Shown: positions 93 through 56,200 of the stretch, piece by piece
Position numbering within the stretch: the first letter of the stretch is position 1
How the letters are laid out: each line of letters opens with the position of its first letter
NCBI GenBank assembly: GCA_029207755.1
Contig: JARCOQ010000232.1
Location: 62,001 to 126,000 of the forward strand
DNA: 64,000 bases
From: Chamaea fasciata
Taxonomy: Eukaryota > Chordata > Aves > Passeriformes > Sylviidae
Direction: 5' to 3'
Position numbers and translations under genes: made by a program
The notes under the pieces: model-generated
Databases searched by the model: none
What the model was told of the DNA's origin: nothing
Seen by the model: the letters and a program-made list of their open reading frames with translations, nothing else

Positions 93-3000
93 GTAAGTGG
101 GATTTTGGGGTAAGGGATACAGAGTGGACAAAACTGCTAAACAGCATTATAACTCTTGAACTGATTTTAACTAAACATTCCAACTCTATAGCCAACAACT
201 TATAACTCCATAACAATTCTCATCCATCACAATAACCTTTTGACATTGTTCAGCAAAATATCACCTCATCTCTCACACCTCCTCTGGTACTGTTCTCTTC
301 TTACTGATGTCTAAGTTCTAGATGAAAAAAAGATATTTGCAGTTGTGTGGGCCTCAGTTTCCCTGTCTCAGAACAACGGACATCCCAAAATTGTTTCCCA
401 TGGAGTCTGATGTAAATTTATGGGTTTTACTTCCTCCGTGAGTCCTCAGTCAGTGCCCCAGAGCTCTGTGACCTCATGGGCACAGGGCAGTGCTTAAGGT
501 AAGTGCTGCCTGGCATTCTGGAGAAGGAAACCCGGAGAAATAGGTGCCAAAAGAGCAGCTTGGCTTGAGCCTGCTCTCTGTGGCCCTGCAGCTCTTGATC
601 AGCTGAGAGCAGAGGTGGGTGAGCTACTGTTTCCCTAGTGTGGCCTGGGCAGAGGTGCTCGCCATGAGTCTGTACTTCAGTGGGGATCAGTGTAAGATTC
701 TCCTTCATGAACCTTCCTCCCAGCAGCTGAACGTCTCCCTGCTCTCTCTTGCCTCTCCAGCTGTCATCAACTCCCCGGAAAAAGAGATCGTTTCGCGTTT
801 CCCCACCAGAGGTGGTATTTCAGAACTTTGTCGTTCATGAGGTCTATGAAATGGTGGTGTCTCTCATGAATAAGGGCGAGGTAAGTGCTGGGACATGGAG
901 TGTTAACACTGTGCTGGAAGAGTGGTGTAATTCCCATAGTGTACAGCAAAGCAAGTTATCTGCTGCAGCACATCCAGAAGAAAATGTCTCAGCATCTTGT
1001 TCTGCACGATGGTGGAAATCTTCCTGTGCTGGGAACTCTCCCCTGATTTTGCCCATGGGCTGACAGTATCTATCCCAAAGGAGTTTCCTTCTTTTGAAAG
1101 CTCTGATTGATAGGAATGTTGAGGGTTGTACAGTTCTTACCTGCTCTCATGCTTTGCTTGAGTCTATACCACATCTTGTGTCTCCTTGGTTAATCTTGGT
1201 TCCTGGTAGGAATTTCTGCCTCTCTCAGCCTGTTTGGCTCCCTTTGTGCAGCTCACAGTCAAAGCTCAGGGGCTGAGTCGTCTACGCTTTCTGCTGGAAT
1301 CACTATCATTAGTGGCACTGGCACGGCAGGAAATGTTCTGAAACAGCCCTGGAATCAGATTGATGTAGCAGAAGCAGTAGGAGGCCTTTAGGTGCCACTT
1401 CAGGCTCCTGCTAAGCTTCATCCAGCTCTGCTCAGGTTTTCCAAAAGCAGCATGGTGCTCTGCTTTCCCTTTGGAGAACCACAGCACATCCAAAGCCATG
1501 TGCTCCTGTTTTGCAGTTTCCCAAGAGAGCTGAGAGGGAAAAAGTTGAAAAACGTCAGCAGTCGTGTTGGACTCTAAAGGGGAAAACTGAGACCATTTGA
1601 ATTTCAGTCAGGGAAACATTTTCTTAAATGAGGCTTGTGCCAAGAGTGGGCTGGTGGGAAGAGACAGGAAGGACTCAAAATCATCTGGTTTAGACTTTTT
1701 GAGAGCATTTTGGTGCTCAGGGGTTGATATCTATGTGTTGAAAATGCATGTTTGCTGTGTCTGTGTATCCCAGAGAGCAGAACTTGGCCTGCTGGCTGCA
1801 AGCGGGAATGCCCAGCAGCCCAGCTTGCCTGCACAGGCAGCAAGAACCCCTGGAGAGCCAAGGTTGGCTTTTAATACTGAAACCACACTGTGAGTCAGTG
1901 CTGGTCATGTTTTGAAATATTCCCCCCGCAGGCCCGGCCCCCCTCCCCGGGGCTAGCTCTGGAGAGGCTTTGGAGGAATATCTCCGAAGGGACAGGACAA
2001 AAGATTTCAAAAGAGGTTCTTACCCCCAGATTATTCCAAGTCGTTTATTCCTCAAAGGGGTCCAGGGGCCGAAAGAGAGAGAACAAAGAAATCCAGGGGT
2101 CTTATCTAGTCTCCTATTTTGGGAGGGTCCTGGCATTCAGCCAATTAGGTGTGGACATGTAGGGAGGAAATTCCAGAAGGGTCAAAAGGCGAGAGACCAT
2201 TCCCCTAAAGAATTGCAAGGTTTCTCCAGGAGGAAAATGCCTTTGAAGCCCGCAGTCAACAGGCACAACCTGTCTGTGTTTCCATCACTTTCGGGGAGGT
2301 GATTGCTGTAATCAGTTGATGATTCTTCCTTGCTGCTTTACTGGCGCTTTAAATTCTCTTTGTCATCTCCCTTTTTTAGGGATTGCTGTGTTCCTTCTTT
2401 TGCTTTTCAGGTTTGCATTTGTTCCCAGTAAGGCCACAGTGTTTGGTCTCCTCTCTTGCTGCTCTGCCTGCATGACTGTATCCCCCAGAACTGCCCTATC
2501 CAAAGCTGACCTGCTAGAAAGGAATTTCTTCCTCCCCGCAGGAGAATGTGCTGTTATGCTTTCAGGTAGCCCATTCCCTCCGTGGAACACGACTGCATAG
2601 CTGTGTGCAGGCAGAAATCAGCAGGTTTTTGGCCCTGTTGAATATGCAGATGATTTGGTTCAGGTGCTCTTGTCTCCATCCTGCCGGTGCTGACCTGCTC
2701 GGCCCTTCCTTCCCACCAGGCACTGCCCTACTGCCCCTGGCCAAAATGCTGGAGCCAGACAGAAGGGATTCAAGTTCACCCTTGGGAATTCTGTGCCTGT
2801 ACCTCCACAGCAGAAAGGGCTTTGGAAAAGGGGTCAAGGAAGGACGTCACCAGGGCATGGACAGGTCTCCTCTTGTCCTGTTTCCTCAAGTGGCAAAATC
2901 ATGGTTCCATGTCTTTCCTGCAGAATCTTCAGGGGGTGCAGGTCTCCATGGAGAGCTCACCTTACTTCCAGCTGGCGGGCCCCAGTGATGCATGCCGTGC

Positions 3001-6000
3001 CGTGCCAGGAGGCGCCATTACCGATGTGCGCGTCCACTTCACTCCTGACGAGAACAAGGTGAGACTGGAGGAGCCAAAACACAGAATTATCTCCAAAGCC
3101 ATTGTTGTCCCTGCACTCTGGGTACAGCCCATGCTGTGAGCTTGGCTCCAGGCCGTGGGCAGGCAGCCTGCAGCCAGTCCCAGCTTGGCATGTGCTGTCA
3201 GGCCCTGCACCCAGGCCTGACAGGCCCTGCTTCCCCTCGCTGCACATTCCTCTGAGCATTCCCAAGGGAAGAAAGATGCCCAGGGAACAGTAGGCAAACG
3301 GTAGAGGGGTGTTGATAGATGTCTGGCCATCTCTAGGTATAGTGGAAGGGGTTTCATTATTCTGCAAAGTACTAGAGGAACAAAGAGGTCAGAGAGCTTT
3401 CCGCCTTCCTGACGGGCAACAGCTTCCCTGCCTCACCCGGGGCTGGAGCAAGGACGGTGCTTTTTCACACCCTCTGTTCTCCAGCCTTGCGGCTGTGCTG
3501 TCCCAGAGCACAGCTGACCATGATACGGCTGCAAGGCCAGGGCAGAGGATGTGCTGTGCCCGTGGGCCCAGCCTGGCACAGGCACACTGAGCTCTAGGTG
3601 CCCTTAGTCAGCAGGAGCTTGGTGAGCTGCAGGGGACTTGGACACCTGCCTGAAAGAGCTCGTGTAGGGCAGGTACAGCCTGCAGGCAGGCAGACCTGTG
3701 GGCCCAGAGCCGGTGGCAGCGACACTGCTGCGGCTCTGTCTTCATGCCTGTCACTGTGGCTGCTCTGTCAGCTGGCGCCCATTCCATGCCAATTGTGCTT
3801 TTGCGTGATAGTTTGAACACCAGTGCCGAGGCCCTGGCAAGTCTGCTCTCAGCGCTGTGATCTGGAGGCTCGTTCATACAGAGGGGTTTAGGACATGGCA
3901 TGGAAGGGAGGAGGCCTTGCAGGGAAACAAAGAGAGGCTCTTTGCAACAGCATCCTGCTACCTCTTAGCACTGTTCTTCTCGTGACTTGGTTGGAGAGGC
4001 AAAGTTAGAGGGGAGTTCTGAGCAAACAGATATTTCTACACCAGGCCAGAGGTCCAGGATCTCTTTGGGTGCAGCTGTTCTCTCAGTTTCCTTTTGCTGC
4101 TTAGATTCAGTTTAACACTTTGTCCTATTCTCAATCAGTGGGAATATAGTAACCTAAGGAGGAATGTCCTGTGTTCCCTAGCTCCATGTTCCTTAGAAGG
4201 GACTTAGGAATTATTTAACATCATTAAAATTGAGAGTAAAAATTATGGTGGCCCTGGGCACTTGTCTGTATGACCCAAGTGACACAAGAGCTTAATGCCA
4301 CTGAGATAGGTTTTGCAAAGTGCACTGCTGCCTTTAAAATGTGAGATATTAGTAGAACTTATTGTTCATTTGGGGGTGGAATAGGTAAATTGATACCCTT
4401 GAAGGGATATAGGAAATGGCTTTTCTTCTGCCATGGAGATGGCACCAAATGACCTGTGCTGAGACAGTTTCTTTTCCTGCAGGTTTATTCCCATGAGCTC
4501 GTCTGCGTCAGTGGAGAGGAAAGGATAGTTGTGCCAATTCGGGCCATCCCTGCCCGAGCTATCCTGGACTTCCCAGACGAGCTGGACTTCTCAAAGTGTC
4601 CAGTCAAGGGCAGCACCCGCAAGAGTCTGCTGATTCAGAATTGTGGTAGTGTGGCAGCTCATTACCAGCTGAGCACCGAGAGGTGAGGCAGCTCATCTGT
4701 CCTTGTGCAAAACACCTTTGGGGGATAACAGAGTTGGGAAAGAACAACAAAAGGAACCAGAGCATGGGAGCTGCTGCCCTGCGTCGCCGGCTGGAAATGG
4801 GCAGGATGGATGGCATCTGCTCTTGCTTTCAGTGTTCTTAGCAGGATGCAGCCTTTGAGCTTTCTCTGCCCCAGATTTCCTGGGGGGTGCTGGAACATGT
4901 TAGTTGCTGGCTTGCGCCCTCCTGAGCACAAGCAGCTTCTGAAATGGGTACTCACCACTGTCAGCCAAACAGACCCATTCTCTGGGAGGACACAGGCACA
5001 TGGCTTTCCAGTGGTGCCTGCATCAGATGCCCAACATGAGCTGTGTTGCAGGCAGCCGGTGCAGTTCCTGTTACTTAAAGCTGATCTGATTTCCCTTGTC
5101 AGCTGAGGGCATCAGTCCCCTCTTCTGTTCCACGATGAACCTTTGAAAGCCGGTTTAAAATTTCAAACACGTGCTTTAAATCTCTGAATAAGGTCGTGCC
5201 CCCTTTCATTGAGATCTCATTTTACATATTCTGAAGTTCCTGTGTTTCTGCTGTTTTTTCATTTTGGTTTGTGTTAAATGTTTGCCAAAAGATCATGAAT
5301 TCTTCATTGGGAACTTTCATAAATGTCAAGCTCCTCCAAGGCCTATCAATACACCACATGCCCATAGGCATAGGCACAGGTGTATTAGAAACATGAGACA
5401 TTTAGTGACTATGTGAAAAGCAATTGGGCTGATTTAGAAGATAAAAGTATAGAATAACTTTCTCTAGAGGGGACCTCTGGAAATTGTCCGAGCAAATACG
5501 CTGCTCAAAGCAAGACCAGTGTCCGGGGATTGCAAGGGGCCATTGGGAGATCTGGAGTTGTCTTTAGATGCCATACAAGGAAACAAACATACAAATGGAC
5601 TAGTTAAAAAGCCGAAGAAGACCTATTAAAACCCCTCCATGACCTTATCTTTTCTGCCTGTCGGGTGCAGTAGTGATTCATTGAAAGGGTAGATCTAACA
5701 GGATGAGAACTATCTTAAGGAACAGCTGACAATTAACTCACTATATTGCTCTAATCAAGCCATAAAAGGCCAAAATTTATCCTGCCAGCCCCATCTCTTG
5801 GCAGTGGTTTTCATTTGGTTATTATAGCGTCAGGGATGTCTCCTTCACAGTCCTTCTTATCTGTGGGCTCAGGGAACAGCTTAGTGATGTTGACTGAAAT
5901 TCAGAGGAGTTAAGTTTAACTGTAGAGCTTGTGTCCTTGGGTCTTGGGGAGCCAGGTCTATATGAGAGATGACTGCTACAGCAGGAACAGGGGAGTCTGG

Positions 6001-9000
6001 TGGGTACAGCCTGGGGTGGGATGTAGGAGATGCAAGGGCTGATTTGCACTCAGTTTTTCAGCCCTGACAACTGAAACTTGGCTGGATCCTCTTCTCCTGG
6101 TAATTTGAAAATAAGAAGATATCTTCTTTCTCACGCAACCCCTGAGGTCACTCCCAGGAGTGTTATTCACATCCTGCCATCTGAGGGCAGGAGTATGTAA
6201 CATGGGGCAGGAGTGGGAAGGGAAGGGAAGGGAAGGGAAGGGAAGGGAAGGGAAGGGAAGGGAAGGGAAGGGAAGGGAAGGGAAGGGAAGGGAAGGGAAG
6301 GGAAGGGAAGGGAAGGGAAGGGAAGGGAAGGGAAGGGAAGGGAAGGGAAGGGAAGGGAAGGGAAGGGAAGGGAAGGGAAGGGAAGGGAAGGGAAGGGAAG
6401 GGAAGGGAAGGGAAGGGAAGGGAAGGGAAGGGAAGGGGAGTGCTGAAGTGTGGCCAGGGACTCCCTTAACTGGCAGCTTCTCTTTCTGGCAAAATTCCTG
6501 ACAAAACAATAAGAAAAAAATCCTGTGCCTTGCCCACACCAGGCACCGATCCCCCAAGCCCCAGCAGAGACCTGCAGCAGTGCTGGCTCACCCTCGGGGC
6601 AGATGTGGGAGCTCGTACAGTAATCGGGCTCCGGGGCTGCTGGGGCCTTGTCTTTCCTCCTCTCTCCCCAAAGTCTCACATCCAGCACATAAACATTGCT
6701 GGCCCAAGGCTTCTCCATCAGCCACTAGTGATGTTCTCACTAGTGGTAATGGAGCAGGTCAGGCCCATAACTGCAGCAATAGGTCCTTAGTGAGCAGAAC
6801 CTGAAGCAAGTTCATCAGCTGTCACTACTGACATGAATGAAATTCAGCTTGCCAGATGTTCTCTATATTTTTGTGTGTGATAAGTTCATCACCAAACTCC
6901 CCAGAACACCCTTTCTGTGCACAGATTGACCACCAGCAAAGCACTGAGGAACTTTTGTTTCCTCAGTGGGGCTGTGGAAGAGCACAAAGCCCAGCAACTT
7001 CTGGGCAGAAGCACATTTCACCTGAGCTGTCCCTGAGCATCAAAGCACGGAGTCTTGTGTTTGTCAGGCAAGAACTGTTCACCTGGTGACCAATCCTAAT
7101 TGCTCCTGTTACATCCAAAGTGCACCAAGACATTTGCGTAATTATTTCCAACACATTGCGCAGAGTTTGTCTGGTGAGCCAAGCAAACAGTTACCAGCCT
7201 GGATGACAACCCAGGGCCCCAGACTGCACTGCTGGTAAATACACAAAACCCTCCTGTTCTGCCTCCTCGATGTGCTCCTGCTAATGGTGCTTCATATGGC
7301 TGGGATTGGATCCTTCAGATTGTAAATGGCATCCTCCTTTTGGGTCTTGTTTCCATGTCACTGTATTGCTCTAATCTGCATTTGCACTCTTTCAGAGTTT
7401 TGATTGCTCCTTTTTGTAGAGCAGCTTTCATTGAAATGCTGACAAAATGTGCTAATTCAGGATCTTTTCAAGGTAAAATAAACCAAAGAGCCACGCTGCA
7501 AATTCAACAGTAGTTATTCCGTGGTCTTCAAGAGAAAGTTCCTTCTCCCTGTCTGATTCCTAGGCTGTAATCTCACAAGAGAGATAGTGCCCTAACATTT
7601 GCATCTCTTGAGAGGAAGTTTATAGGTAGCAGGAAATGAGAAATTCCTGAGGCAGTCAGCGTCAAGTTATGCATGCAGATAGCTCTTAACTCTCTCTGTG
7701 CTTTTCACAAACCATTCTCTGATGGGATTGCTGGCAGTCAGAAGGCTGGATGCAGAGTATGGGGGAGATTAGGTCGTTTTATCCCACAGGATCTTCTGAG
7801 GGCTGGATCTCCTCAGAAGTGGGTCAGTAGCTGTTTCTGATCCTGGCTGTTCTGTCTGTCTTGGCCGTAGTTTGTTTGCTCCCTGCTTGCCCAAGTGAGC
7901 TGAAGTGACCTGCACTGCAGAAAGAATGTCATGGCCAGAATTCCCCCCAAGTCCTGATCCTCTCTTTGTGTTGCAGTCCTTTCTCCGTGGTTCCAGCCGA
8001 AGGAATTCTGGGCCCTGGTCACACCATGCAGGTGACAGTGGGATTTCACCCGCTGACGTGCGGTGACCATTTCGGGTCCCTGGTGGCGCGCTGCATAGGT
8101 GAGTGCTGGGCAACGCATGGGACACAGGACAGTTCTCCACCATCACTCCCTGTTCATCCCCCTCAATTCCCTCTAGATGTACCTCCTCTGTTCCAGCTCT
8201 GCCCCAAAGAAAACTGAAATAGCTGGTGTTTAAATGGTTGAAAAAGTGGATCCCCTCTAACAGGGCTGAGATTTTTGGAATTCTGTTTTGCTGGGTGTTG
8301 CAGAGTGGAGGAAGGAGGAACCCTGATTCTCCACTACTGTGTGGCTACGCCTGGGTGAAGTTTTATTTTACTCCTGGGCAGTGCTGTATGTGAGCTGCGA
8401 GGTCTCCATCAGACTCTCTCCAATGCAGTGTATTTCTTGCACACCTCTGTCCTGTATGCCGCTTCTCCACTGGCTTGTCACAGACCCTTTTACTATGTTG
8501 CCCTCTACACATCCATGCAGTTTTTGCCTAATAACATCTTCAGGCCCTCAAGTTCCTGTATGGTGACAAATCAAGACAAATTTTTCCTCGTCCCCATTTC
8601 CCAGGCCGTTCATGCTGTTGCAAACCTCTCACATCTCCCATTTGATTTCTAGACTGAGGAATCCCATTCAGACTTCATATAGAAGCTGCTCTGTACTTAT
8701 TAATCTTTCCTTGTCCTTTTGTATTTAACCTGAAGTGCTCCATCTTGGTTTTTGAGATCAGGACAATATGAAATATTTCAAGACTGATGGGGCTGTGGGT
8801 TTGGACAGGAAGATGACGATGATGATGATTTTTATGGTGTTCATTTTGTAGTGGTTTGTCATATTGCAAAGCCAGGCTGGTTGTGTTTCCTCTCCTGTGT
8901 CCCCTCCTGCTGTGGGCTGTCACTTCACCTGTTCCTCTGGGTCTCCTTTTTCTGCCCACATGCCCCCAGGCGTATTTGCTTGTCAGCAACAAGGGATCCA

Positions 9001-12000
9001 AGGGATCAGGAGGGGCAGGAGTCTCGTGGGATGCGCAGGGGAGACCTCGGCAAGCCAGGATTGACCAGGGCTCCTCAGTGTCACCTGAAGGACTTTGATG
9101 CAGAAATCCCAGTGGTCTGAGTGGGTCACCTGAGCACATCTGACAAATCCCACTGTACATACTGTCACCTTGGGGCCAAATCTCTACAAACACCTTGGAA
9201 ATAAGGTGGTTAAGGAGGTGCCCAGGACATCCTCACGCAGTACACACAGAGCTGTCAGGACGTGATAAATGTACTGATCCATGGAACTGCTAATACATTT
9301 AAAAGCTATGACACTTTCTTCCGTGACCTGTGGTTTGCTTTGTTCCTTGTGCTTCCATCAGCAACTGAGCTAGCTGAGCAAAGACTCTGCTTTGTTCCAG
9401 GTGAAGAAAGTTTCTTCACATTCCTTCGCGCAGAAGCTGCAGATGTCAACATTGGATTGAGCACATATTCCATGAAGGTTGAGAAGACTTTCATCACCAC
9501 ATCAAGCCACACAAGCATGTTCATCAGAAACAGGAGTAACATCACAGCCCACTTCCAGTGGAAGATGTTTCCTACTGAGGAAGCCGACAATGAAGAGAAG
9601 AGGAGGTTGGTTTGAAAGATACGTTTCAGTGAGATACATGGCCCAAGACTGAAACTAATGCATGGCCTCAGGGGGGTGTTGGTGATTTTGAATGGTTTAG
9701 GCCAAGTAAACCATCCCTGGCATTAGGGTGTGTGTCCCTGGGCTGCAGGAGCTCAGCACAGCATTCCAGTTCCATTTATACTCCAACCAAGGATGGCATT
9801 TTGGGAAGGAAAGGTTGATTGCAATGACTGGATTTCCTCAAGTTCTAATTGGGCTTTTGCCTCCCTAATCTTCTTCCTACATGACCTGGCAACATCCTTA
9901 AACGTTTCCTGAGTTGCCAGCCCCTCTTTGCAAAGGCAATACGCCCTCTTTTTTCCCCTTAGTTCCTTCCAAATCTCCTTGCCCATCCAGGCTCGTTGTC
10001 TTCCCTGTCAGCTCATCTTTCAGCACACAGGGACAGTCTGTTCCTGTGCCTTCAAGACTTCTTTCTTGAAGTATGTCCATCCTTCCTGGACCCCTTTGTT
10101 TGTAAAGGCTGCTCCCCAAGGTCCTCTCCAAAACAGTCTCTTGAACAGGCCGAAGGCTGCCTTCCAGAAGACCAGAGTGGAAGTTTTGTTGATGCCCCTC
10201 CTTGTTTCACTGAATGTTGAAAACTCTGTTATTTCACAGTCACTGTACCCCCAGACAGTGGTGAACAGATGAAGTTCTTTTAGTTCTTAGGGAATCTCCT
10301 GGTGATATCCAGTACCTGGATCCCAGGGAGGCAGCAGGCTTCCCTGTGGAACGGATCCGCTCGATATACAGGGCCCTCATTTCCCCTTAGAAGGGATTCA
10401 CTTACTACCACTACCCTTCTTTTCTTCGTAATACTTTTTTCCAATTACATTTATTTTCATGCCAGTTTGTGTCCTAGCCTGTCACCAGGACATTTTGTTT
10501 TTCCTTACTTCCAGTCTTAGGGATGGTGTTAGCTCTAAGGCCTACTCTCCTGCTGTCAGAGATGCTTTTGAGATCTCAGAGCAGAGAGGACTTTTTTTTA
10601 TGAGAGGAGCTAGTGCAGGATCCTTTCCCTCTCTGGCCATTCTACTACCATGCACTGGGATGGGACCCAAAAAGCTCTGGATCCTGAAAAGATGATCTCT
10701 CCAGGAGTTTGCTGTCTGTCTCCTGCACCAAGAAGTCCCTTCCCCTCTCACAGCCTCTGTTTTCATGCATATAAAACCTTGGATGTCACTGAAGGGATGC
10801 GGTGCCTGAATTCATCAATTTCCTTTGGAAGTGCTCTGGGATGCTCTTGTGAAAGGCAGAGTAGGGAACAGGGCAGGTCCAAAATGGAAGAAACAAAGAG
10901 CGATGCTGGTAACACGTAACCACAACCCAGCTTCGTCTCCCTTTCCCAGGGAAGTCCTGCAGTGGGTGCTCCGTGATCTTTATCTGCTTCCCCTGAGCAG
11001 CTCAGTGGTAGGAAAAGCCAGCTGAGGTGGCTGGTGGATTCTCCCTCAGTTTTGGCAGAGGCTTTGAGGCAGGAGATTCTCTTGAGGGATGCTGGCTTTC
11101 CAAAGCTCTCCTGAGCTTGCAAGTGTGGAGTAAAGCTACCTGCTGAGCTAGTGCACAACAAGTTATCTTCTGATCCGATTGGGACCCTCGTGGCTTGGGG
11201 TCAGCCCTTGCTGGGGAGCTGCCGCTCCTCCCCAAGTGCTTTGCTCTCCCGCACTTCCGCTTCATCTGCAAATATGCGGCTCATTAAATGACCTGCTGGC
11301 TTTGTCTCTCCCTGCGGCTGCAGGCAGTGTGATTTGCTGGAGCCACCACCAAAGGTCTGGATGGAAGACTTCATGGAGGAGAAAAAATAAAGAAGGTGAA
11401 GGGCTTTTGTGAAAATTGCACCGCCCTCCTGAGCCAAAAGGTCCAGGAGGAGAAGGCAAAGGTGCAAGAAGACCCCCTGCTGTTCTCCAATGACTTTTGT
11501 TTTCATTGAGCCAATGGTAAGTGATAGCTGAGAACCTCATTTTCCTCCTCTTCCTTCTCTTCCTTCTCTTTCTCCTTGTCCTCCTCCTCTTCCTTCTCCT
11601 CCTTCTCCTCCTTCTCCTCCTCCTCCTCTTCCTCCTCCTCCTCCTCCTCCTCTTCCTTCTCCTCCTCCTCCTCCTCTTCCTCCTCCAGCCCACCCTACCC
11701 CCGCCCCTTCCCCCGGGTGCGGTCACTCAGCAGATCCTCAGCTGGCTCGCTGTGCTCAGAGGGAGGACATGGAGTTTCTGGTGCGGCTGCAGAGCTCACT
11801 GCTGAAAGTATTTCTGCCCTGCAGGCTCAAGGCAGGGCTGGGAGCCTGACAAAGCTGAGCTCTGCTGCCAGGGCTCGAGCTCAGGGCACTCCGTGTCCTT
11901 GAAGTGTCCACAGGGAGCAGTTTTTGTAGGTAGGGGCTCCCCCGACACGTGCTGCTGCGTGGGGTTCAGCGGAGGGTGTTGGAGCAGTGCCAGTTCACGG

Positions 12001-36000: not shown

Positions 36001-38222
36001 TGGATTGAGCACATATTCCATGAAGGTTGAGAAGACTTTCATCACCACATCAAGCCACACAAGCATGTTCATCAGAAACCGGAGTAACATCACAGCCCAC
36101 TTCCAGTGGAAGATGTTTCCTACTGAGGAAGCCGACAATGAAGAGAAGAGGAGGTTGGTTTGAAAGATACGTTTCAGTGAGATACATGGCCCAAGACTGA
36201 AACTAATGCATGGCCTCAGGGGGGTGTTGGTGATTTTGAATGGTTTAGGCCAAGTAAACCATCCCTGGCATTAGGGTGTGTGTCCCTGGGCTGCAGGAGC
36301 TCAGCACAGCATTCCAGTTCCATTTATACTCCAACCAAGGATGGCATTTTGGGAAGGAAAGGTTGATTGCAATGACTGGATTTCCTCAAGTTCTAATTGG
36401 GCTTTTGCCTCCCTAATCTTCTTCCTACATGACCTGGCAACATCCTTAAACGTTTCCTGAGTTGCCAGCCCCTCTTTGCAAAGGCAATACGCCCTCTTTT
36501 TTCCCCTTAGTTCCTTCCAAATCTCCTTGCCCATCCAGGCTCGTTGTCTTCCCTGTCAGCTCATCTTTCAGCACACAGGGACAGTCTGTTCCTGTGCCTT
36601 CAAGACTTCTTTCTTGAAGTATGTCCATCCTTCCTGTACCCCTTTGTTTGTAAAGGCTGTTTCCCAAGGTCCTCTCCAAAACAGTCTCTTGAACAGGCCG
36701 AAGGCTGCCTTCCAGAAGACCAGAGTGGAAGTTTTGTTGATGCCCCTCCTTGTTTCACTGAATGTTGAAAACTCTGTTATTTCACAGTCACTGTACCCCC
36801 AGACAGTGGTGAACAGATGAAGTTCTTTTAGTTCTTAGGGAATCTCCTGGTGATATCCAGTACCTGGATCCCAGGGAGGCAGCAGGCTTCCCTGTGGAAC
36901 GGATCCGCTCGATATACAGGGCCCTCATTTCCCCTTAGAAGGGATTCACTTACTACCACTACCCTTCTTTTCTTCGTAATACTTTTTTCCAATTACATTT
37001 ATTTTCATGCCAGTTTGTGTCCTAGCCTGTCACCAGGACATTTTGTTTTTCCTTACTTCCAGTCTTAGGGATGGTGTTAGCTCTAAGGCCTACTCTCCTG
37101 CTGTCAGAGATGCTTTTGAGATCTCAGAGCAGAGAGGACTTTTTTTTATGAGAGGAGCTAGTGCAGGATCCTTTCCCTCTCTGGCCATTCTACTACCATG
37201 CACTGGGATGGGACCCAAAAAGCTCTGGATCCTGAAAAGATGATCTCTCCAGGAGTTTGCTGTCTGTCTCCTGCACCAAGAAGTCCCTTCCCCTCTCACA
37301 GCCTCTGTTTTCATGCATATAAAACCTTGGATGTCACTGAAGGGATGCGGTGCCTGAATTCATCAATTTCCTTTGGAAGTGCTCTGGGATGCTCTTGTGA
37401 AAGGCAGAGTAGGGAACAGGGCAGGTCCAAAATGGAAGAAACAAAGAGCGATGCTGGTAACACGTAACCACAACCCAGCTTCGTCTCCCTTTCCCAGGGA
37501 AGTCCTGCAGTGGGTGCTCCGTGATCTTTATCTGCCTCCCCCGAGCAGCTCAGTGGTAGGAAAAGCCAGCTGAGGTGGCTGGTGGATTCTCCCTCAGTTT
37601 TGGCAGAGGCTTTGAGGCAGGAGACTCTCTTGAGGGATGCTGGCTTTCCAAAGCTCTCCTGAGCTTGCAAGTGTGGAGTAAAGCTACCTGCTGAGCTAGT
37701 GCACAACAAGTTATCTTCTGATCCAATTGGGACCCTCGTGGCTTGGGGTCAGCCCTTGCTGGGGAGCTGCCGCTCCTCCCCAAGCGCTTTGCTCTCCCGC
37801 ACTTCCGCTTCTCTCTGCAAATATATTAAATGACCTGCTGGCTTTGTCTCTCCCTGCGGCTGCAGGCAGTGTGATTTGCTGGAGCCACCACCAAAGGTCT
37901 GGATGGAAGACTTCATGGAGGAGAAAAAAATAAAGAAGGTGAAGGGCTTTTGTGAAAATCGCACCGCCCTCCTGAGCCAAAAGGTCCAGGAGGAGAAGGC
38001 AAAGGTGCAAGAAGACCCCCTGCTGTTCTCCAATGACTTTTGTTTTCATTGAGCCAATGGTAAGTGATAGCTGAGAACCTCATTTTCCTCCTCTTCCTTC
38101 TCTTCCTTCTCTTCCTTCTCTTCCTTCTCTTTCTCCTCGTCCTCCTCCTCTTCCTTCTCCTCCTTCTCTTCCTTCTCCTCCTTCTCCTCCTCCTCCTCTT
38201 CCTCCTCCTCCTCCCCCTCCTC

Positions 38223-38262
<40 letters not shown>

Positions 38263-44200: not shown

Positions 44201-47200
44201 TGGTCCTTTCCTCTAGGATTCATCTGTCTACTGTGTAGAATTGTTAATGTTCTTTTTGGAGGATGTTTGGGGCTCCCCTGGCTTCATGTCTCAAAACTCT
44301 GTCTGTAATGATTGTGTGGGTCAAAATCTCCTGAGAAAGCTCCTCCATGGGAAGACCAGTTACAGCCAAGTAGCAAAGCAGGGAACCTGTGGCTGGAAAG
44401 GCTGGTTACAGAAGTTTGTGGGGACACCTTTATGTCCATCCCATTACAGATGGGGAAACTGAGGCACGGAGACACATCTGGATGGGTTTTCAGGGTCCCT
44501 CATGGGACCACCGGCAACTTGGGGGCTTTTCCTGCCTGCCCTGCGTCCAAAGCCCCATCAGTGGCTGTGGGCTGCTGGCCTCTTGGCTTTAGCTGCCTCC
44601 TGTGCACATGGACACTGTGCAGAGCACATGGTGGTGCGTTGATTTGAAACCCACGATGCCCCTGACACCAGGTTTTGTGCCCCCAAGCCACGACAGCCGG
44701 AGGCTTTGCAATTCCCTTTAACGCAGCCATTTCCTCCTGTGTCCCTGTCATCGCAGGGGGTGTGTCGTCGGGCTGACTTTACACTTCGACACCGATGAGC
44801 TCGACTTCGGTGACATCTCCTTTGGTGAGCGTTCCCTGCGCTGGGACACAGCGGGAGGGATCTGTGTGCTCCAAAATGGAGCACTTGAACGTAAAAGCAT
44901 CCAGCACTGCTCATGTTCTGCCACAACAGCCTCTTCAGGGTGTTGTAATAGATACATACTATTAAATTCGTGGATTAAAATTGTGTGTATTAAAACTTTG
45001 CAGTGGAATGTAAAAACCCCTGAATTCCTGGAAATAGTTCCAGGGCATCTCTTTGCATACCACAGCCTTTTCACAGTCCAAAGGTGTAACCTCGACATCT
45101 GCCAGAGAGATAACCGGGAAACAGCCCATTAATCATGGGCTGACCACATCTTCACAGTTCATCAGGAGATCCGATCCCAATCTGGGCGGAGGTCGGCAGA
45201 AAACCTTCTGACAGAAGATTCGGAGACTTTTCATTCAGACGTCTTTTCAATTTCTCAGGAAACTCTTTCAGATATCCCTTGCGGACACCAGACATTTCAA
45301 TGATTCTGTTATGTACATGATGTCATGTTCTTCGGGTTCTTTGTTACCGTCTTGTTTTCGCCTCAGGGTAGAAAAATGGTATAAAACGCCTACCCTGAGA
45401 CCCCGAATTTGTGGGCAGTACTCCGGAGAAGCACCCTTTGCTGCTCCCGGATTGTCCACCCAACCTTCGATCGATGTTGTCCTGATTTATTGTGGCGTTT
45501 CCCGAAATTGCTTTTCAAATTTGTTAAATAAATCTTTGATTTAGGAAATTGGCTCTGATCATTTATAACAGTGTGAACTGCAGGTGCCTCAGGTAGCATT
45601 TTGCCATTGTGGGATCAAATAGGAGCAAGTATTTTCTGGTGTCTCTGTCCTGGTTTAAAAGACAGATTCTGCCAAGGAAGGTGGCAATCTTCATGGAATG
45701 GAATGATGACCCTCCTCTCTCCAAATTACTATACCTTTGAAATTACAGGGCTTCCAGGCAAAAATATGGAAAAGGAATAGCAGTTCGTACTAGAATATAT
45801 CAGGACAGCACAGACAACAACGCAATGCCAGAAGTTTCCAACCCGCCGAGTCCTGTTTTCCCCTTTGGTGTGGTTATGATCACAGGCTGGAGGAGCGGTG
45901 GGCTCTGGCAGGGCAGTGATTTCCCTCCCAGCCGGCACGGGCAGGGAGGGAAGGAGGAAATCGCTGCTTTTGCAAACTACGGGCAGCAGGAGATCTGGGC
46001 ACTGGCAATTGGGAGCAGGCAGAAGTGGGGACGGCGGGCAGGTTCGATCACGGTGCTGAGCCCGGCGTCAAGCGCACGACGTCCCGCAGCAGCACGCTGC
46101 CGACCTTCCCGAGCCCCGCGCGGAAGGACGGAAAGGTCTGCCCCCTGCAAACCTCGGCTCCGACTTCACAACCGCCCGCGGCATCACGGCAGAGCTCCCA
46201 AAGAGCCCCGGATGGAAAAGCCCACCCGCACAGCCGAGACCACCCCAAACCCCCTGTATTTCCCTTCCCAGACTGAGGCCAAAATTCACTACGAAACCTA
46301 AACTCATAACAATGAAGTTGTTGAACGTTTTAAGAAAACTAATTGCCTCTCCTGATCTGCTTCTTCGCCACCCTGCATCACCACTGAGGCACTTGTTAAG
46401 TTGCCTTTTGAATAAATGAAACAAGAAAGGCAACAGGTAGAAACGCATTCCTAAGGTCTCTTCAGCTGAAGGCAGCTGTTGTATCTTTGCTTCTTTTTAA
46501 CTGTTGTTGACTGTTGTCTGCATGTGGTGACCTCAGTCTCATTTGAGGTTTTGACATCTGTGTTTGTCCCTTTTGTGCTTCTCTTGCCTCCCTGCTGGAG
46601 TCACTGCTGGAGCCGGCAGTGATTACTGTTGATGGGCACAGAGAAGCTCTGGGCTGCGCCTGCAGTTGTTTTTTTCCCCCACCTGTGTTCAAATGACTCT
46701 TGGTGAGCAGGCCTGGGGAGAAGTCTCCTCCCCACAGAGCTGGCCAGCCAGTCCACTGCAGAGCAGGTTGTGGCTGGTGTCCGGGCTCTGCAGGACATCC
46801 CCACCATGCGTGGCACTATCTCTGGCTTTCCAATATGGAAAGCAAATCTCAGAGTTAAGGTGGGGTAAACCCTTGCAGGCAGCAATCACAGTGAGTAGTA
46901 TGGGTGCGATGTCCCCGCTTGTTGGGTCAAGGCTCGGGTTTGCCTCCAGCTGAGTGGGCTCTGAGCTGTCACATGCCCAGTCTGTTTGGCCCAAACCAAA
47001 AGACGCCTTAAGAATTCTGCAGAGAGAAACTGCATTAGGGTGCTTTGCATCACGTTCTAGTTCCTGATTCCATCCTCACTTTCTTCTGCTGTAGCTTCTT
47101 CTCAATGGCGACTCACTCTTTATGTATCTTGAAAAGGGTAGGAGTGTTGGCAGACTTAACAGGGAATTTTACAGTTTGAATTTTCAGAGGAAATGCTTGG

Positions 47201-50200
47201 TCTGGGTGCACAGTCATCAGGGAGAAATAACTGGTGCTGGTTTGGGGCAGGTGAGGGAGCTTCTCCCCATCAGAAAGAGAGAAGCTTGCAGTGTTGAGCA
47301 GGGCTAAGAGCAGGCATTTTCAAGGCTGCAGTCTGGAATCAGTGTTAAAGGGAACTAAGTGACGACTAATTCCTCTTGCAGCTTCTCAGTAATCTGTAGT
47401 TCAGATAATAAAGAGCTAAACTCCAATCACGCTTTCATGCTACCAGGGTATTCCCACCAGGAGTCACGACATAACTGGTGCCTAAATGGATATTTGTGTC
47501 CTTTTCCTAGGCTTTCCCTACACCAAGACCTGTCGCCTCACTAACACCTCGCGGGTGCCGGACGATGGCACTCAGCCTGCTGTTAGCAGCTTTGAGCAAA
47601 TACTCAGCGACAGTGAGCCCTCCTGGAGGGAGGGAATTCATTTTTCTGTGAAGCCAAGGGAGTTTACAATGAACCCCAGCGAAAGGACCCTCCAATCCCA
47701 GGAACACCAGGATATCGAGGTATGGGAAGAGTCCAGCCACACACACTTCAGCAGCGGGTCTGAAGCTTCACGGGAGTGTGGGAGGGCTTTAGCTCTGATG
47801 CCAGCTCTGATCATCGTGTGAGCGAGGATCTGCACTGGCGTGGGGCCTCTGTGAGCTGGGTTACTCGGGACGTTCCTGAAGGAGCACTGATTTGTTTCCA
47901 AAATCACAAGCTGAAATCATGTCCCATATGGTCAAGTACTGAAGGCATTTTGGTGTTTTTGAGAGCAATGTCTTTGATTGCAAGTGGGCAGAGGACGGAC
48001 GAGGACCAAAGGTGGCTGTTAGACAGATGTCATTATATAAAGCAATTTGCTTTTCTTCTTGGTCTCATTTCTCCTGTCCTGGGGAGTAGAATGATTTGTG
48101 TTCACTGCAGGGATCTCCAGTGAAGGCAAAAAACTCTGCGGCCATGAACTGCCCAGCACCTGCTGGCCCACGCTTTGTCTTCAGCTTCCTGCTGTAAAGC
48201 TGAACTCATTCTGTTCAAGTCAGCAGATTTCCTCTGCATTTATGTCATTGTAGTCAGATGAAAATTTGCCCCTTGATTTGAACACAGTGCTGCACAGAGC
48301 TTTAGTCTAATGTTTTAATTTAGCTGACCTATGCCCTGATAGCAAGGTGTGCTTAACAAATCTGGTATTTGCCAGAAGGCTTTTGTCACTCTTAGAGACT
48401 GCTCTACACGTGGAGCGGCAGAAGAATTAAGGCAAAATCCTCCCTTTTCTTACCACAAAAACTGGAGGACATCACACGTGAGTCATGAGCTTTTGTAAAG
48501 AAGAATTTACTGCTCTTCTCTTCCACCAGGTGACCCTGTGTTCCAACACTGTGACGGAATACAACCGGAAATTGCTGGTGGACCTGGAGTGGTTTGGCAA
48601 GGGAGTGGCATCACTGGTCATCAAGGCCAGGTACCAGCACTTCCCTGGCCTCCCCCAGCGCACTGCCTTGCACAGGATGTGCTGGCTGCAGCTCCCAAGG
48701 AGACGTGTTGTTTAATGACCTCATGTTCTGCCCAGCTGGACATGAGAACAGCAGTGCTTGAAAAGCAGCCTGTGGTGAAAAGCAGCCCTGCTGACAGCCC
48801 AGCGTGGTCCTGGGTCGTTTTCTAAAGGGACCAGGAATGATATCATTTATTGACCTGGTGCTTGAGGTGAAGCAAATTTCCCAAGGGCCTCCTCGCCTTC
48901 TTCCTGCAAGAGGTGGAGTTGTGCTGGGTTGCAACCAGCCCGCGTTGGCTTGGGGCACACCAAGCAGTCTGCTGAGGGTCAGGGTCTGGTTCTGTTAACG
49001 AGGGCACGTGACAGTGGGGAAGTGGCTCACAGCAAGAGAGGTGAGGGCAGGATCTTCAGAGGGGAAATCAGTCCTTGATGTGGCAGGTCAGCTCTAATTT
49101 TTCCCCTTCTCTCTGCTTCCTGTTTTGAGCTTTGATGTTCTCAGGCTTAAAGCAAAAGTTGTTCTTGCTCCAGCAGAATTCCATCCTGCTGTGCTGCTCT
49201 AGGTGTCAGTTTAATGACAAGAGGGATGCAGTTCCCTGGTGCTGTTCCCACTCCCAGGCAGAGCCATCTCGTCAGTGCCTGGGCTGCTATGTTTGAAAAG
49301 CAAGTGCAATTGGGGACAGTCAGTGTTTGGACCTGTGGAGTGAAGGACCAGGGGAGTTGTAGGAACTGGGAGGGAGTGATCTCCCACTCTGTGGGGCAGG
49401 TGATGTCTCATGCCCTCCAAGGCTGGGGCAAACAGCTGAGTTCTCAGGCAGGGTAACAGCACCATGGGAGAGAAGGGAGTCCTTTTTACTGAGACACTAG
49501 AGTCGTGTGTTCCTGGAGCCTTACTGAGCACTGATCCCTGTTGGGAAGGCTCCCCCAGAGCTCATGGATCACTGGGACTGTTCCAGGAGTTCTTGCAAAC
49601 CTTCTTGGGTGAAGGAGGGGCTGAGGCAGCTGTGGGACCAAGTGCTCTGCCTGGGGCACTTGGCAGCCTCTGGGTGCTGCCTCTCAGGTTTTGCCCCTCC
49701 TCGACAAGACATGTTTGAGTGGGAAGACTTTGAAGGCAATTTTTCACCGTAGGGCTGTTAAATGTGTATTTGACAGTGACAAAGGTGTTGTGCTCCATTT
49801 CACAATCTTTGGGGGTAAACGTTCTCCATTCTCTCAGTATCTCTGATTCCCTTGGGGTCATCTCTTTGCCCAGATGTTTCGTTCCTGAGCTGCAAGTGTA
49901 CCCCCAAAACCGGGGGATCCATGAGTGCGACCTGAAGGCGCCGTTCGTGAGGAAGTTCTTCATTTGGAATAACACCCACCTTCCTGGCTGCTATGGGCTT
50001 ATTCCCCAGGTTTGGCATCGCATCCACCTCCTCCTCTCAAATATTACTGTGGAGATTATTAGGGGGGAAGAGGGTTTGGATAAGACCTTGCCGGTTTCTA
50101 TTCAGTCTTAAAGATCTGCTGAGAACAGGATCCTACCTGAATGTTAGCTTTAGGATGCAGTTTAATCTCTTGAGGAAAGGGCTTACGTTCTAGTCTTCAG

Positions 50201-53200
50201 GGTGTTTTCTTGTGGGAGATCTTCGAGGGTTGTGAAAAGCTGCTGCATCCACAGACACCAGTGCTTGTGCTGGCAGCCTCCTTGCAGAACCCCCTGAGAA
50301 TGCTAAGCCTACAATTCTTGGATCTTGTTTGTGCCTTTTACCTTTGTCCTGGGGATTTTTAAAAATGTGTGTAAGTTGCTGTTGGGATGGATGTTGAGGA
50401 GTTTAAAGTTTCTTCAGAGGTCCCTCTGAAGCTGGATTTGATTCTGTCCCTTCTAGGAACCCGAGGAGGACTCTCCTGTGCTCTACTCCAGCCCCAGACC
50501 CTGTGGGATTCTCCAGCCTCGGAGCGCTGCAGAGATTCCAGTTACAGTTGAAATCCAAAGATTGGGCAAGCGTTGCACCAGTGTTTGTACCGGCGTGTTT
50601 GGGGATGCAAGAAACCCACTGGTGAGTGCAAGGGGAGGTGTGTGCCTTCGTGCAACTGGTCCTGGCAGGGTGCACAGTGTGCGGGGATTCTTCCGGGGAA
50701 AAGAGGCACAGGCTGCTGTGGAGAAGGACAGCAGGGGCAGGTGGCATAAACAGCTCGTGCCTTATAGGTGGCAATGTCAGTGTCTGACCCAGAAGATAGT
50801 TCATCTAAGCTGGAATTGAGGATCATTTTAATGAATCTTTAAAATGCTCTTAACTTTGGAAACATCTTTTTTAAAATGTTACCTCACAGCACAAAAGAGG
50901 ATGTCAGAAGATTTCTGGGAACCTTGGGCTTTCTGTAAAAGAAAGGAAAGCTGGCATCTGAAGAGTAGTTGCAAGGATTTAAGCTTACATTAAAACATGG
51001 AAATGGTGATGCCAAATTCCCTGGATGGCACCAAACATCTGAACCTGGGCCATTGTGGCACTGCATGTAAACCAGTCAACAGGGAGGACAGGCAGTGCAG
51101 GCTGTGCCAGGGAGCCTGAAGTTTGACTGAGCACTTGCTTTCAACTATCAGATTGCTTACCTAAAGAGAAGAGTTTCTCCCCACCCGAAGAACCAGTTGT
51201 TTAACTGTCAGCCTGATCTTAACTAGAGATTTCTTGCAAAGCTTCTACCTTTGGACCAATAATTTGTAGTTTGAAAGTTTCTCTTTACTTAATCCTTTTC
51301 AATTTGGAGGTGAATACATAAGCTTTATTTTTTTCCCCCCAAAATCCCAGGAATTCAGCTGGAGAATGGTAGCTGTCCCTAAAGAAATAACTTGAGCTGG
51401 GTTGAGCTGTTTAAGCTTTTTTAGGTTTCCCTGTTCGGGTTTGATTTTTTTTTTTTTTTTTAAATCTTTCTTGCCTGCTTTCTGTAACAGAGAACAGAAC
51501 TACAGAGCCTTGGACGGCTGTCAGCAGTCTACATAAGTCCAAGGCTGATAGAGTTCAGCAGGATCCCAGTGCTAAGGCCTAATTCACAAGCTTTTGGCCT
51601 CTTCAACGAAGATCTCGTCGATTTAGACTTCAGGCTAGAGATTGTAAGTATCTGTGGGGCCGTTTTCCAGGGAAATTGACTGGTTGACATTACAAGCTGC
51701 CATGACGTGGTTTTTATATGCATCGGCCTGTGTGAGAGGAAGCAAGATATTCCAAGATTCCATCTGGGTGAGGCAAAAGGAACCTGGCTCTGGAGTGGTT
51801 TTAGCTGGGGCACTCCTCAGTGAAATCAGGTGCAGAGATGTTGGAGCAGAAATTCGTCTGGATTGTGTTGACGAGTTCTCCCATAATTTTATGGAAGGTC
51901 TTTAGCTGTGTGTGTCACGGTTTTTGAGCTCTGAGATCAAGAGAAACCTGTGGTCCTTTGCTCCTCGGAGAGCATGGGTTTCCCTGTGCTTTCCCTGTGC
52001 CATCTACATTTGCTTTGTGCCAAACTGCTGTTCATGGTAGAGAAGAGGGTGTGAGGTCTGTCCTCAGACTGCTGGTGGGGAGGCAATTTTCACACCTGCT
52101 GTGGGTCAGGCCAGTTGGGCTGTCCACACAAAGACATGTGTGGGGGTTGTGCACCCCCCCAGCCTGTGGTCTCTGTGCCTTTGAAGAGCATCTTTGGGGA
52201 CCGGCTGCAGAGAATGGCTGTTTAATATGTGAAGGCTGCATAGGGCAGAGGAGCTGGGGCTGCTCCCCTGGCAGGGAGAGCAGGGCTGCTGCAGCCAGGA
52301 AGGGCTTGTAGGCTGGGCCTGGGGCTGGGTGGGATGTCTGCTGGAGGGGGAGATCTCTGAGGGGCTTGAGGTCTGTTCTTCTCCATGCTGGGTGTGTTGA
52401 ACTTGGAGCTGGTTAAAACCTGATCCTGTGGACTTGTTTGTGTCTGTGGATAAAGCATCAGGCCATGTGGGAAAGTCCAGCCACAGCCTCCTGAGCCAAG
52501 GAGGAGGGGCATGATTTTTCCTCTTGCTGCTTTTCCTGCAGTTTGGGGGATAAATGTAACCTTAAAGTGAGGGATTTTTCCAGGACAGCTTTCTCGAACT
52601 ACACAATGAAATTCTGCCTTCCACCTCTTCAGGGAGCAATGCACCTTGGCTGGGTGGGCCTGGTGTGTAAAGGATGGGCTTCACGTGCTCGTTCCAGGGC
52701 TGGACCTGCAGAGCTGTGTCTGTACAGCTGTGCTGGTGCGGGGCCTTTCCTCCCTCCTTTGGGCAGCTTCCAGCTCTCTTGGCCAATCTGTGAAGCCCAT
52801 GAGAAACCAGAGGACACGAGTTCTTAGGAAGAGTGGGCCATGCCCACTGAGCACATGTCATCCAGTTTTCCCTCTGCTTCCTGCTTTCCTGCTCTGCCAT
52901 AACCATTTAGAGGTGACTTTTCCAAAGCAGAAGGCCCTGGGGCACCTCTCTACAGCGGATGATCAGTGGGAAGTGAGGGCCTCGGTCCTTTAGGGGACGT
53001 TGAAAAGCATTGAGGGCCTCTTGGGAAAGGATAGTTTGGTGTTGGGGTTTTGCTCAACTGGTTTTGCGGAGATATTCTTCAGGCTCTCAGCAGTGTCCTC
53101 CAGCTGTGTGGTTTCTGGAGTGGGATTTGAGCCGTCATGACTTCCTCTGGCCCTGAGCCTTTGTGAGAAGCCAGGAGAGAGAAAGCAGCTTTCCTTGGCA

Positions 53201-56200
53201 CACACTCCAGAGAAGGACTGGGGAAGGAACACTCTCCTGAGGATAAGCGTCCCTTGGGTTGGGCAAAACTGGGTTAATTAGGTGAGAGTCTGTTAAAGGA
53301 GGGGAAAATACAGGTTGTGTAAGCTCTGCTGTTCCCCAATACTGCAGCTTAAATTTAGGGAAATTAGGCCTTTAGGATTTTTATCCTCCCCTCTTTAGTC
53401 TTCTCCTTTTCTTACACCCCATAAGAGACCAGGGTGTATGGTTTCCATCCTAAATGCACATTATGCGTGTCTTACAGGCTTGTAAACCTCACTGCTATGT
53501 TATTGAACCCAGGGAAGGAGTGATCCCCGCCAGGGGTGATGTTCATGTGACTGTCACAGCAACCCTGGATGACACTGGGGTTTTTGCTGATGCTCTCCAG
53601 CTGTTCATTGGGAACAGACTTTGGACCACCTCCACCCTCCTGGCTTTTGGCACTGGCACCACAATTGTCACAGACAAACCACTTGCCCCGGAGCTCAACT
53701 TGGGATACCAATTCAGGTAGGAGATCTCCCACTCCCACCTCTCCTTCTGTCTCAACAAGGAGCAGTTTTGCTGTAGTCCTTCAGGCACGATCTTCTTCAG
53801 TGTTCAAAGACCCTGACTCCTTCCCTGAAGGCAGAGATACCTTTAGAGACATGTGATGGCCAGTTGAGCGTTGCTAGGTACCCTCAAAAACCACTGAAAG
53901 AGAAACCAGTTGCTCAATTGCCACTGAATTGCCTTCAGTTCTAACACATCTATGTCCTCACTTGGTCAAGTAATGATCTCGCAGGCTCCCCCAGAACAAA
54001 AGGTTCCCAAAATGGCGCCTGGATGAGGCGGGCCCTCCGTGTGGCTGCGGGACCAAGGGAAGATGGCATCGCACCCTTCCCTTCCAAAATGGCACCTGCC
54101 AGGCAAGCAGGGGCCCTGGGAACAAAGAGACGGGAGGGTGACGACCCCCCTGGGAAGGCAGGAGCCCGCAGAGCAGTTCCAGAGGCAGATGGAAACTTGC
54201 TGGTTTGTGTGGGGCCTGCAGTGCCGCTGCCAACGCTTCCTCACGCTGCTCGTGGGCTCTGCTGCTGCCCTGCCTGCCCAGGACTGATGCTTGTGCGGGA
54301 GGCCAGAATGTTAGGGTGCCCTCTCAGGTGCATCACCTCTGGGTTTGACCGGCAGCCTCAGGATGGCCTAAAATATTAGCGAGGCAGCATGATCAGAGGT
54401 GTTTGAAAAGCAAAACTGTTTTAATTAAGGTGAAAATAAGAAGCCATGCAGAAAAAAGAGAAAAAGCTGTGCCGAGTGCAAGGAGGACCTTTGCACTTGC
54501 TACAACACCCCAAAAATGCCCTGAGGATCTTGGTCTATTCTCTTAAGCATGTAACAATCCAGGCCGGATTCTTGGCATCCTGCCCAATAGAAATAGGAAC
54601 AGGGCTTGAGGCACAGTCTCAAAGATCCAAGGGCTGCGTCCATCCTGGCACAAGGCCAAAAAAGGTATCAAAACCTCTGGTTTTTACCTCATGAGTGAAA
54701 CAAAGAATGGAACCCAAATCCTTCCCTTAAATGGAAGCCTCCTTGCCACTGTGGGGCTGCAAACCCTACCAGGTGAGGTACACTTCTACACAGGACCTTG
54801 CTCATTTTTCCGTTGCCAGCAGAGTTTGCAAAGTTCACTTCAAAACAGTTTCTGATTGCGAAATGAAGTTTCTACAAATGACCACCAGTGCAAAACCAAA
54901 GCTTCTACGAACGAGAGAGCCCCTGCTCCCCTGGTTTCCTCTCCTAGAGCAGACAGATGATTTCTAGCAGCTTGCTGGGATTGTCCAGAAACTTCCTCCG
55001 CGCTGGCTTTTAAAAATGCCTGCAATCATACCCCCGCACACAAGGGCCTCAGGTGCAGGATCTCAAAGATTCAATAACAGTTTCGGGTGCAGATTAATGC
55101 AAAATACAGTAACAGTATGAATCACCCCAGAACACACATTTTGGAGGAAAACACCAGATCCTGTTAGCCTGGCCTGGAAAATGCTACATTACCATTAGAA
55201 ACATATTCCTCTTTGCAATAACGACATCAGAAGGGCAGCTTATCAGACACTGTTCCCAGTCCACATTAAGAGCTGCAAATGAAGACGGTCTCCAAGCTAT
55301 TAACAGCTCAGAATCCTCATTGGGAGCAATCTGATGACCAGGACAATAGCTTCTCCCATACTATTTTCCATTCTGGTTTCTCTTCTAGCCTCCTTCCCTG
55401 TGCTCGTCAGTTCAGACTAACAGATGGGGGCCACCACTTCCATCAGCTCTTCTGGAAGGCGGAATGTAACAGGCCAGCTGGGAAGGAGGGCCAGAGCACC
55501 TCAGCCCACAGTAGCCCCAAGGCCAAACGTGATTCCCAGAGGCGCAAACGTACGGCCCCCGTGTTTGGGCTGGAGCCGCTGTCAATGGACCTGAAGCCAG
55601 GAGAGTCTGTGGACTTGGTGCTGCCAGGCTTCTCCCGCAAGGCGCAGGTGAGGTCCCCACCACGGGCTGAGCTGGGGAAGCATCAGATCCCCTCCCCTGG
55701 GCTCGTTCCACAGTCCCTTGACATTTGCCTGGGGAAATGAGCAGGGGCCTTCAAGAAACTGGTTTAAGACCACACGTTTCTGTGGCAGCACCACTTATTT
55801 TCCTTGCTGGTCACCATCAGACCAGCTACAGCTTTATTGTGATTCCACAGCCACCAAAACCTAGTGCTGATCCCGAAGTAAGGGTAGAAGGAAATACTGC
55901 TCTTTTGGGGCAGACAGCGTTGCATGCTTTGTCAGCAAAGAAGGGCAGAGAAATAAGTTAGTACCACTTAGACTAGGAGCCCAAAAAGAAAGTGAATTAA
56001 ACAAGTGCCAAGTGGTTTTTCTGGGGTAAGCACAGAGTAAACCAAAAGCCATGTGAAGGGGGGGAGTTTATCACAAGTGCCTTTTGTGGTTATTGGGGTG
56101 CAGTGCTACAGACAGTTGAGTGCAAAATAAATAAGCTGCATCACTGGAAGAAAAGCGGGCAGTGACCATAACTCTGTGGCAGGAATAGGGCGCGTGGTGG

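Follow-up and report, generated by a model that had tools for sequence, protein, structure and literature searches.

A 16-exon unit repeated in tandem inside tandemly arrayed HYDIN-like genes of the wrentit

We analyzed a 64,000-nucleotide window from the wrentit, Chamaea fasciata, that carries a HYDIN-like gene (contig JARCOQ010000232.1, here C232, positions 62001–126000; assembly GCA_029207755.1, 1.194 Gb in 1,341 contigs). The direct tandem duplication of exons E3–E18 within this one gene is real, and its junction recurs in a large array on a second contig, C12 (24,058,687 bp), where a unit of about 26.7 kb carrying E3–E18 forms runs of 2–18 in 11 of 23 tandem genes. We think it likely that the array is a young nested tandem amplification in the wrentit, a neutral macrosatellite in a gene lineage that was already broken.

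The two copies of the unit in the window, W1 and W2 (Table 1), adjoin exactly and in direct orientation, and the 64 kb contain no N bases. BLAST self-alignment pairs about 1227–27767 with 27766–55742 in four pieces at 98.5–99.3% identity. Together with the exact abutment and the exon mapping, this bears out a first-pass annotation of the window, which had described E3–E18 as present twice, in direct orientation, inside one gene. A global alignment of W1 and W2 contains 170 mismatches, of which 118 are transitions and 52 are transversions. It also contains small indels, and W2 has three larger blocks, of about 85, 670 and 631 bp, that W1 lacks. The 85-bp block is also present in five C12 units and missing from one. 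Substitutions between the copies are densest at 15858–17608 (copy 1 coordinates), the same place as the three large indels, and single-nucleotide differences cluster at 16.2–18.2 kb (30 in 2 kb, p = 0.0004). An allelic origin of this cluster was rejected because units along the array are mosaics. The parent breakpoints have AG in common, or AGC with the next base included. Rfam and tRNA searches returned nothing useful for interpreting the duplication.

The junction between W1 and W2 is one of 50 identical junctions genome-wide, which replaces the two-copy event of the first-pass annotation. A search for a 35-bp string across the junction, tolerating two mismatches at most, gives 50 matches in the genome, all of them exact, with 49 on C12 and one on C232; the reversed string, used as a control, has none, and the recurrence is far beyond chance. 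A 301-bp junction probe scored at 40 places among 105 candidates in the genome. The 48 junction spacings on C12 comprise 35 at 26.6–26.8 kb, ten at 90.5–93.2 kb that lead from gene to gene, and three at 28.0–39.9 kb. A 200-kb portion of C12 that was read contains no N and seven exact unit junctions. In gene C, a two-unit gene on C12, the left boundary, the junction and the right boundary are those of the window, with 100% identity over 50 bp each.

A probe around E21 located the genes themselves. It matches 29 places, 27 on C12 and two on C232; identity is 93–100% at 27 places, including both on C232, and 69–71% at the other two. Twenty-three of the C12 places form an ordered series from 19.33 to 22.31 Mb, and counting the junctions between successive E21 places gives the number of units in each gene. 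Twelve genes have one unit (nine at the low end of the cluster and three at the high end), and the 11 multi-unit genes have 2, 3, 2, 3, 6, 3, 4, 11, 6, 18 and 2 units, or 60, for 72 units overall. The E7 T-tract pattern occurs at 76 places in the genome, 72 of them in the cluster, and the E17 pattern at 75, with 71 in the cluster; one of the 72 units therefore lacks the exact E17 string. The unit at C12:21118046–21157990, in the 11-unit gene, is 39.9 kb long and exceeds most units by about 13 kb. The one-unit genes at 19.33–19.92 Mb (eight) and 22.14–22.31 Mb (three) recur with a period of 83.5–84.6 kb and have in common a TTTTTTTCC form of the E7 tract.

Exons E3–E18 were placed from splice signals, bird relatives and homologous HYDIN chains of PDB entries, and homology to bird proteins and the PDB chains also places E2 to the left and E19 onward to the right of the units. 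As first annotated, the cassette is in phase 0 both at the start of E3 and at the end of E18, and the unbroken exons sum to 2,628 nt (with E7 = 193 and E17 = 239), the length found in five of six full units of gene J on C12. GT/AG dinucleotides are retained in W1 and W2 at 15 exons, plus E7. As printed in the window, the exon sums are 2,627 nt for W1 and 2,629 nt for W2, with internal stops in both. Exon E12 (19549–19757 and 47511–47719) is eight codons short, in frame, compared with five oscine HYDIN-like relatives. Pfam identifies several overlapping Ig/ASH families over the unit, for which about seven ASH domains had first been proposed. A PDB search with E7 returned chance matches only, and some other reading frames had no PDB match. 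Over the E18/E3 join, where a chimeric ASH8/ASH1 domain had been proposed, Pfam recognizes none: within the 207-residue joined piece it matches only residues 177–206, where the next Ig domain begins.

Both window units are broken. Each has a frameshift in E7, and W1 is additionally missing one base in E7 and one in E17, so a transcript of both copies would be out of frame, contrary to the reading first given. Eighteen of the 76 E7-tract places have the frame-breaking T4-G-T4 form. Besides W1 and W2, they comprise 15 places in C12 multi-unit genes and a single one-unit gene, at 20.0 Mb. All 11 C12 multi-unit genes and the window gene are broken at this tract in their first unit, which makes 12 of 12 complete multi-unit genes. 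Other lesions are scattered among units. The A-run of 6 in E7 of W1 has the same form at seven other places of 63 matched, an A-run of 8 occurs in two further middle units, both in gene J, and the E17 lesion of W1 is unique among the 75 matched E17 places genome-wide. Gene C combines a broken first unit with an open second one. Among the five gene-J units of 2,628 nt, all free of stops, four retain every splice dinucleotide and are wholly open; the fifth (U21583585) has an AA acceptor at E14, and the sixth full unit combines an E7 frameshift with the same acceptor. The idea of a whole lineage decayed to pseudogenes, with no open unit anywhere, was rejected, as C12 has open units.

Ten units that we compared differ pairwise by 0.11–0.79%, so the assembler has not looped a single sequence. 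W1 differs by 0.43–0.48% from the six gene-J units, by 0.60% from both gene-C units and by 0.66% from W2; W2 differs by 0.66–0.79% from the eight C12 units. First units cluster together (W1 with C1 of gene C, support 0.76), as do last units (W2 with C2, support 0.997), and this common descent accounts for the first-unit lesion pattern. The nearest relative shifts along each window copy, as expected of mosaic units.

The coding differences fit an absence of constraint, in small numbers. Between W1 and W2, 16 changes are nonsynonymous and four synonymous, against a neutral expectation of 71% nonsynonymous, and divergence is 0.76% in exons and 0.60% in introns, a difference that is not significant (p = 0.29). 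Five C12 units of 2,628 nt have 17 nonsynonymous to seven synonymous changes, with 0.91% coding divergence compared with 0.72% over all columns. The structural expansion of a protein put forward in the first-pass annotation finds no sign of constraint in the W1/W2 coding differences.

On sequence comparison, the window gene is a divergent oscine HYDIN-like paralogue and not HYDIN, as it had been called. HYDIN is a central-pair protein, and PDB entry 9ijj includes a HYDIN chain. The window unit belongs to the oscine HYDIN-like clade in a tree of 29 protein sequences, where it nests with P0121, with P0194 and P0195 of Chamaea and with Sylvia borin (supports 0.98–1.00); a suboscine protein (Pseudopipra) is sister to this clade, and wrentit P0029 lies in the HYDIN clade. 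Identity of the unit is 57–71% to HYDIN-like proteins in other oscines, apart from a low-quality Corvus model at 49%, and 40–47% to members of the HYDIN clade. Orthology to HYDIN was rejected, given that the unit does not group with HYDIN of birds and reptiles in this tree. The E21 probe shows the paralogue to be multi-copy on one chromosome, and songbird HYDIN-related genes on chromosome 11 have been described before (PMC4377847).

Protein relatives were taken from the matches listed, which cover proteins up to about 5,650 residues only. Among 291 matching proteins, out of 296 compared, at least four re-use unit residues: P0193 (wrentit), P0122 (hawfinch, threefold), and P0128 and P0257 (partial). 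The P0193 model, flagged LOW QUALITY, has two units, the first incomplete, and joins E18 to E3 in frame. In P0121, a protein of uncertain locus, E2 is followed by an unbroken unit of the 8-T type that is open at E7. Ammospiza caudacuta and Agelaius phoeniceus each have at least 11 HYDIN-like proteins among the matches listed, and ten of those from Ammospiza caudacuta lie on one 28.5-Mb contig.

Table 1 Features of the window (positions within the 64,000 nucleotides)
Feature	Position	Strand	Description
Unit copy 1 (W1)	1229..27767	+	26,539 bp, exons E3–E18; self-alignment
Unit copy 2 (W2)	27768..55741	+	27,974 bp, exons E3–E18; self-alignment
Unit–unit junction	27767..27768	.	recurs 50 times genome-wide
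E2, HYDIN-like gene, left flank	761..880	+	phase 0 to 0, open
E3, copy 1	2924..3058	+	phase 0 start
E7, copy 1	11324..11516	+	two frameshifts: T4-G-T4 tract, and A-run of 6 (7 when intact); stops early
E17, copy 1	25505..25742	+	238 nt, one C missing
E18, copy 1	27415..27673	+	phase 0 end
Chimeric intron E18–E3'	27674..29462	+	GT...AG
E3, copy 2	29463..29597	+	
E7, copy 2	37866..38059	+	one frameshift (T4-G-T4 tract); stop within E7
Solo-LTR-like (long terminal repeat) insert in W2	43185..43854	+	about 670 bp, TG...CA, internal AATAAA; missing from W1 and six C12 units
LTR-like insert in W2	44940..45570	+	about 630 bp, TG...CA, GTGT at both ends; missing from W1 and six C12 units
E17, copy 2	53478..53716	+	239 nt, open
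E19, right flank	56282..56425	+	phase 0, open
E20	57770..57910	+	open
E21	58400..58720	+	open; surroundings (58300–58800) served as gene-count probe

We infer the order of events and the mode of multiplication as follows. A single tandem duplication, joined at 2–3 bp of microhomology, would have produced a two-unit gene, whose first unit then acquired the E7 frameshift. Unequal crossing-over and gene conversion would have gone on to multiply and shuffle whole genes as well as single units. Since the cassette is phase-neutral and flanked by introns, unequal crossing-over would be free to alter unit number, and extra units may have been tolerated as a neutral macrosatellite because the gene lineage was already broken in its first unit. 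A transcript starting at E1 would stop in E7 of the first unit and yield a fragment of roughly 300–345 residues. Judging from the reading frames, the longer protein suggested from the duplication is probably not made, and two rescue routes are possible: skipping of units, or starts inside later units.

Several observations weigh against a neutral macrosatellite in a broken lineage. The last units are open at the E7 T-tract in 11 of 11 C12 multi-unit genes and the middle units in 34 of 38, the E17 tract is intact at 74 of 75 matched places, and the wholly open units of gene J make up four of the six fully read. With so little divergence, later units would be expected to stay open even without selection, and for that reason these counts are weak as counter-evidence and as evidence of use. 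Working genes with a single unit are also probably present, as the E7 tract is open in 11 of the 12 one-unit genes of the cluster. With the second gene-C unit included, the C12 count of nonsynonymous to synonymous changes becomes 21 to 11, slightly under the neutral share of nonsynonymous changes. The last unit of the window gene is broken, unlike the last units on C12. The E7 lesion could be a local assembly error shared by the copies, yet several lesion types segregate among units. Lastly, the symmetrical cassette means that E2 spliced to E3 of a later unit would keep the frame; among gene models, P0121 has E2 joined to an unbroken unit and the LOW QUALITY P0193 has two units.

This last point leads to splicing rescue, in which E2 is joined to E3 of the last unit, a one-unit protein is made and the extra units are intronic ballast. 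The phase-neutral unit, the open last units of C12 (11 of 11) and P0121 all agree with it. However, splicing would have to pass over between 27 kb and about 450 kb of DNA that contains exons, last units related by descent yield the same pattern, and the last unit in the window is itself broken at E7; we hold this explanation to be unlikely. That the assembler inflated the C12 array, so that the unit number is wrong and the duplication itself real, seems improbable to us. Neighbouring units are as little as 0.11% apart and the unit is longer than typical high-fidelity (HiFi) reads, which would favour such an error, but each of eight C12 units, six full ones in gene J and two in gene C, is distinct from all the others, and the unit runs agree with the gene spacing given by the independent E21 probe.

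We give very little credence to a working multi-unit protein, with units translated in frame into many-fold ASH arrays. The phase-0 cassette, the many open units and the in-frame join of E18 to E3 in P0193 point that way; the frameshifted first units described above, in every complete multi-unit gene, and the neutral ratio of nonsynonymous to synonymous changes point the other, as does the presence of more broken units within gene J. Haplotypic false duplication, with two alleles placed end to end by the assembler, is extremely improbable: the 98.5–99.3% identity is within the allelic range and there is precedent in earlier assemblies of three species, for which 4–16% of sequence is reported as falsely duplicated (PMC9516828), but the identical junction is found 49 more times, no gap separates the copies, and W1 is nearer to the six gene-J units than to W2. 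We reject it for the unit structure; the rejection does not cover C232 as an alternate haplotype of part of C12.

A neutral macrosatellite in a broken gene lineage thus remains our preferred reading, and a close known parallel is LPA KIV-2 in humans, where a multi-exon cassette is likewise repeated head-to-tail within one gene in near-identical copies. KIV-2 is reported to range from 1 to >40 copies, each 5.5 kb long and containing two exons (PMC4378929). The wrentit unit differs in its size (26.7 kb, 16 exons) and in lying inside a gene that is itself tandemly arrayed, and all 12 complete multi-unit genes carry a frameshift in the first unit. Measured at the DNA level against a coding macro-VNTR (variable number tandem repeat), the wrentit unit is intragenic, head-to-tail and multi-exon, its number varies from 1 to 18 among the 23 genes of one assembly, and unbroken units keep the frame (2,628 nt, phase 0 to 0), although W1 and W2 are themselves out of frame.

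Among HYDIN relatives, human HYDIN2 is also a partial HYDIN duplication, dispersed to another chromosome; the wrentit repeat, an internal tandem, differs from it in kind, as the first-pass annotation had stated. The zebra finch genes HYDINL1-5 on chromosome 11 are partial or divergent HYDIN copies repeated, as here, on one chromosome; their loci are bordered by assembly gaps, and the available portion of that account describes no intragenic tandem repeat (PMC4377847). HYDIN homologues also vary in copy number through duplication in nightingales, whose hydin copies lie on the germline-restricted chromosome, a different chromosome type, and for which the available portion of the source describes no intragenic unit (PMC10387091). 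Hawfinch HYDIN-like P0122 has three near-identical tandem N-terminal blocks in one predicted protein, which extend from the start region to about E13 and so differ from the wrentit unit in their boundaries; it may be a second, independent intragenic repeat, or possibly a gene-model artefact. The literature covered, mostly titles and abstract openings and with supplementary files and subscription papers outside its scope, contained no report of the wrentit array.

Wrentit sperm have been described as tadpole-like, in a report on one male (PMC12310291). We offer, as a conjecture with very little chance of being right, that a nested exon array in genes related to the sperm axoneme yields products that disturb or reshape the flagellum and so help to explain this form. 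The candidate products in this conjecture would be open units translated into giant ASH arrays, proteins of one unit produced by skipping, or N-terminal fragments arising in abundance from the frameshifted first units.

In one chromosome of one bird, then, a 16-exon, 26.7-kb cassette multiplies inside gene copies that are themselves multiplying. Gene models and gene counts for songbird HYDIN-like loci call for caution, as they may confuse the units of one gene with separate genes. As the cassette is phase-neutral, it allows a natural test between two outcomes: that giant repeat proteins emerge and are tolerated, or that such arrays persist only in broken genes.

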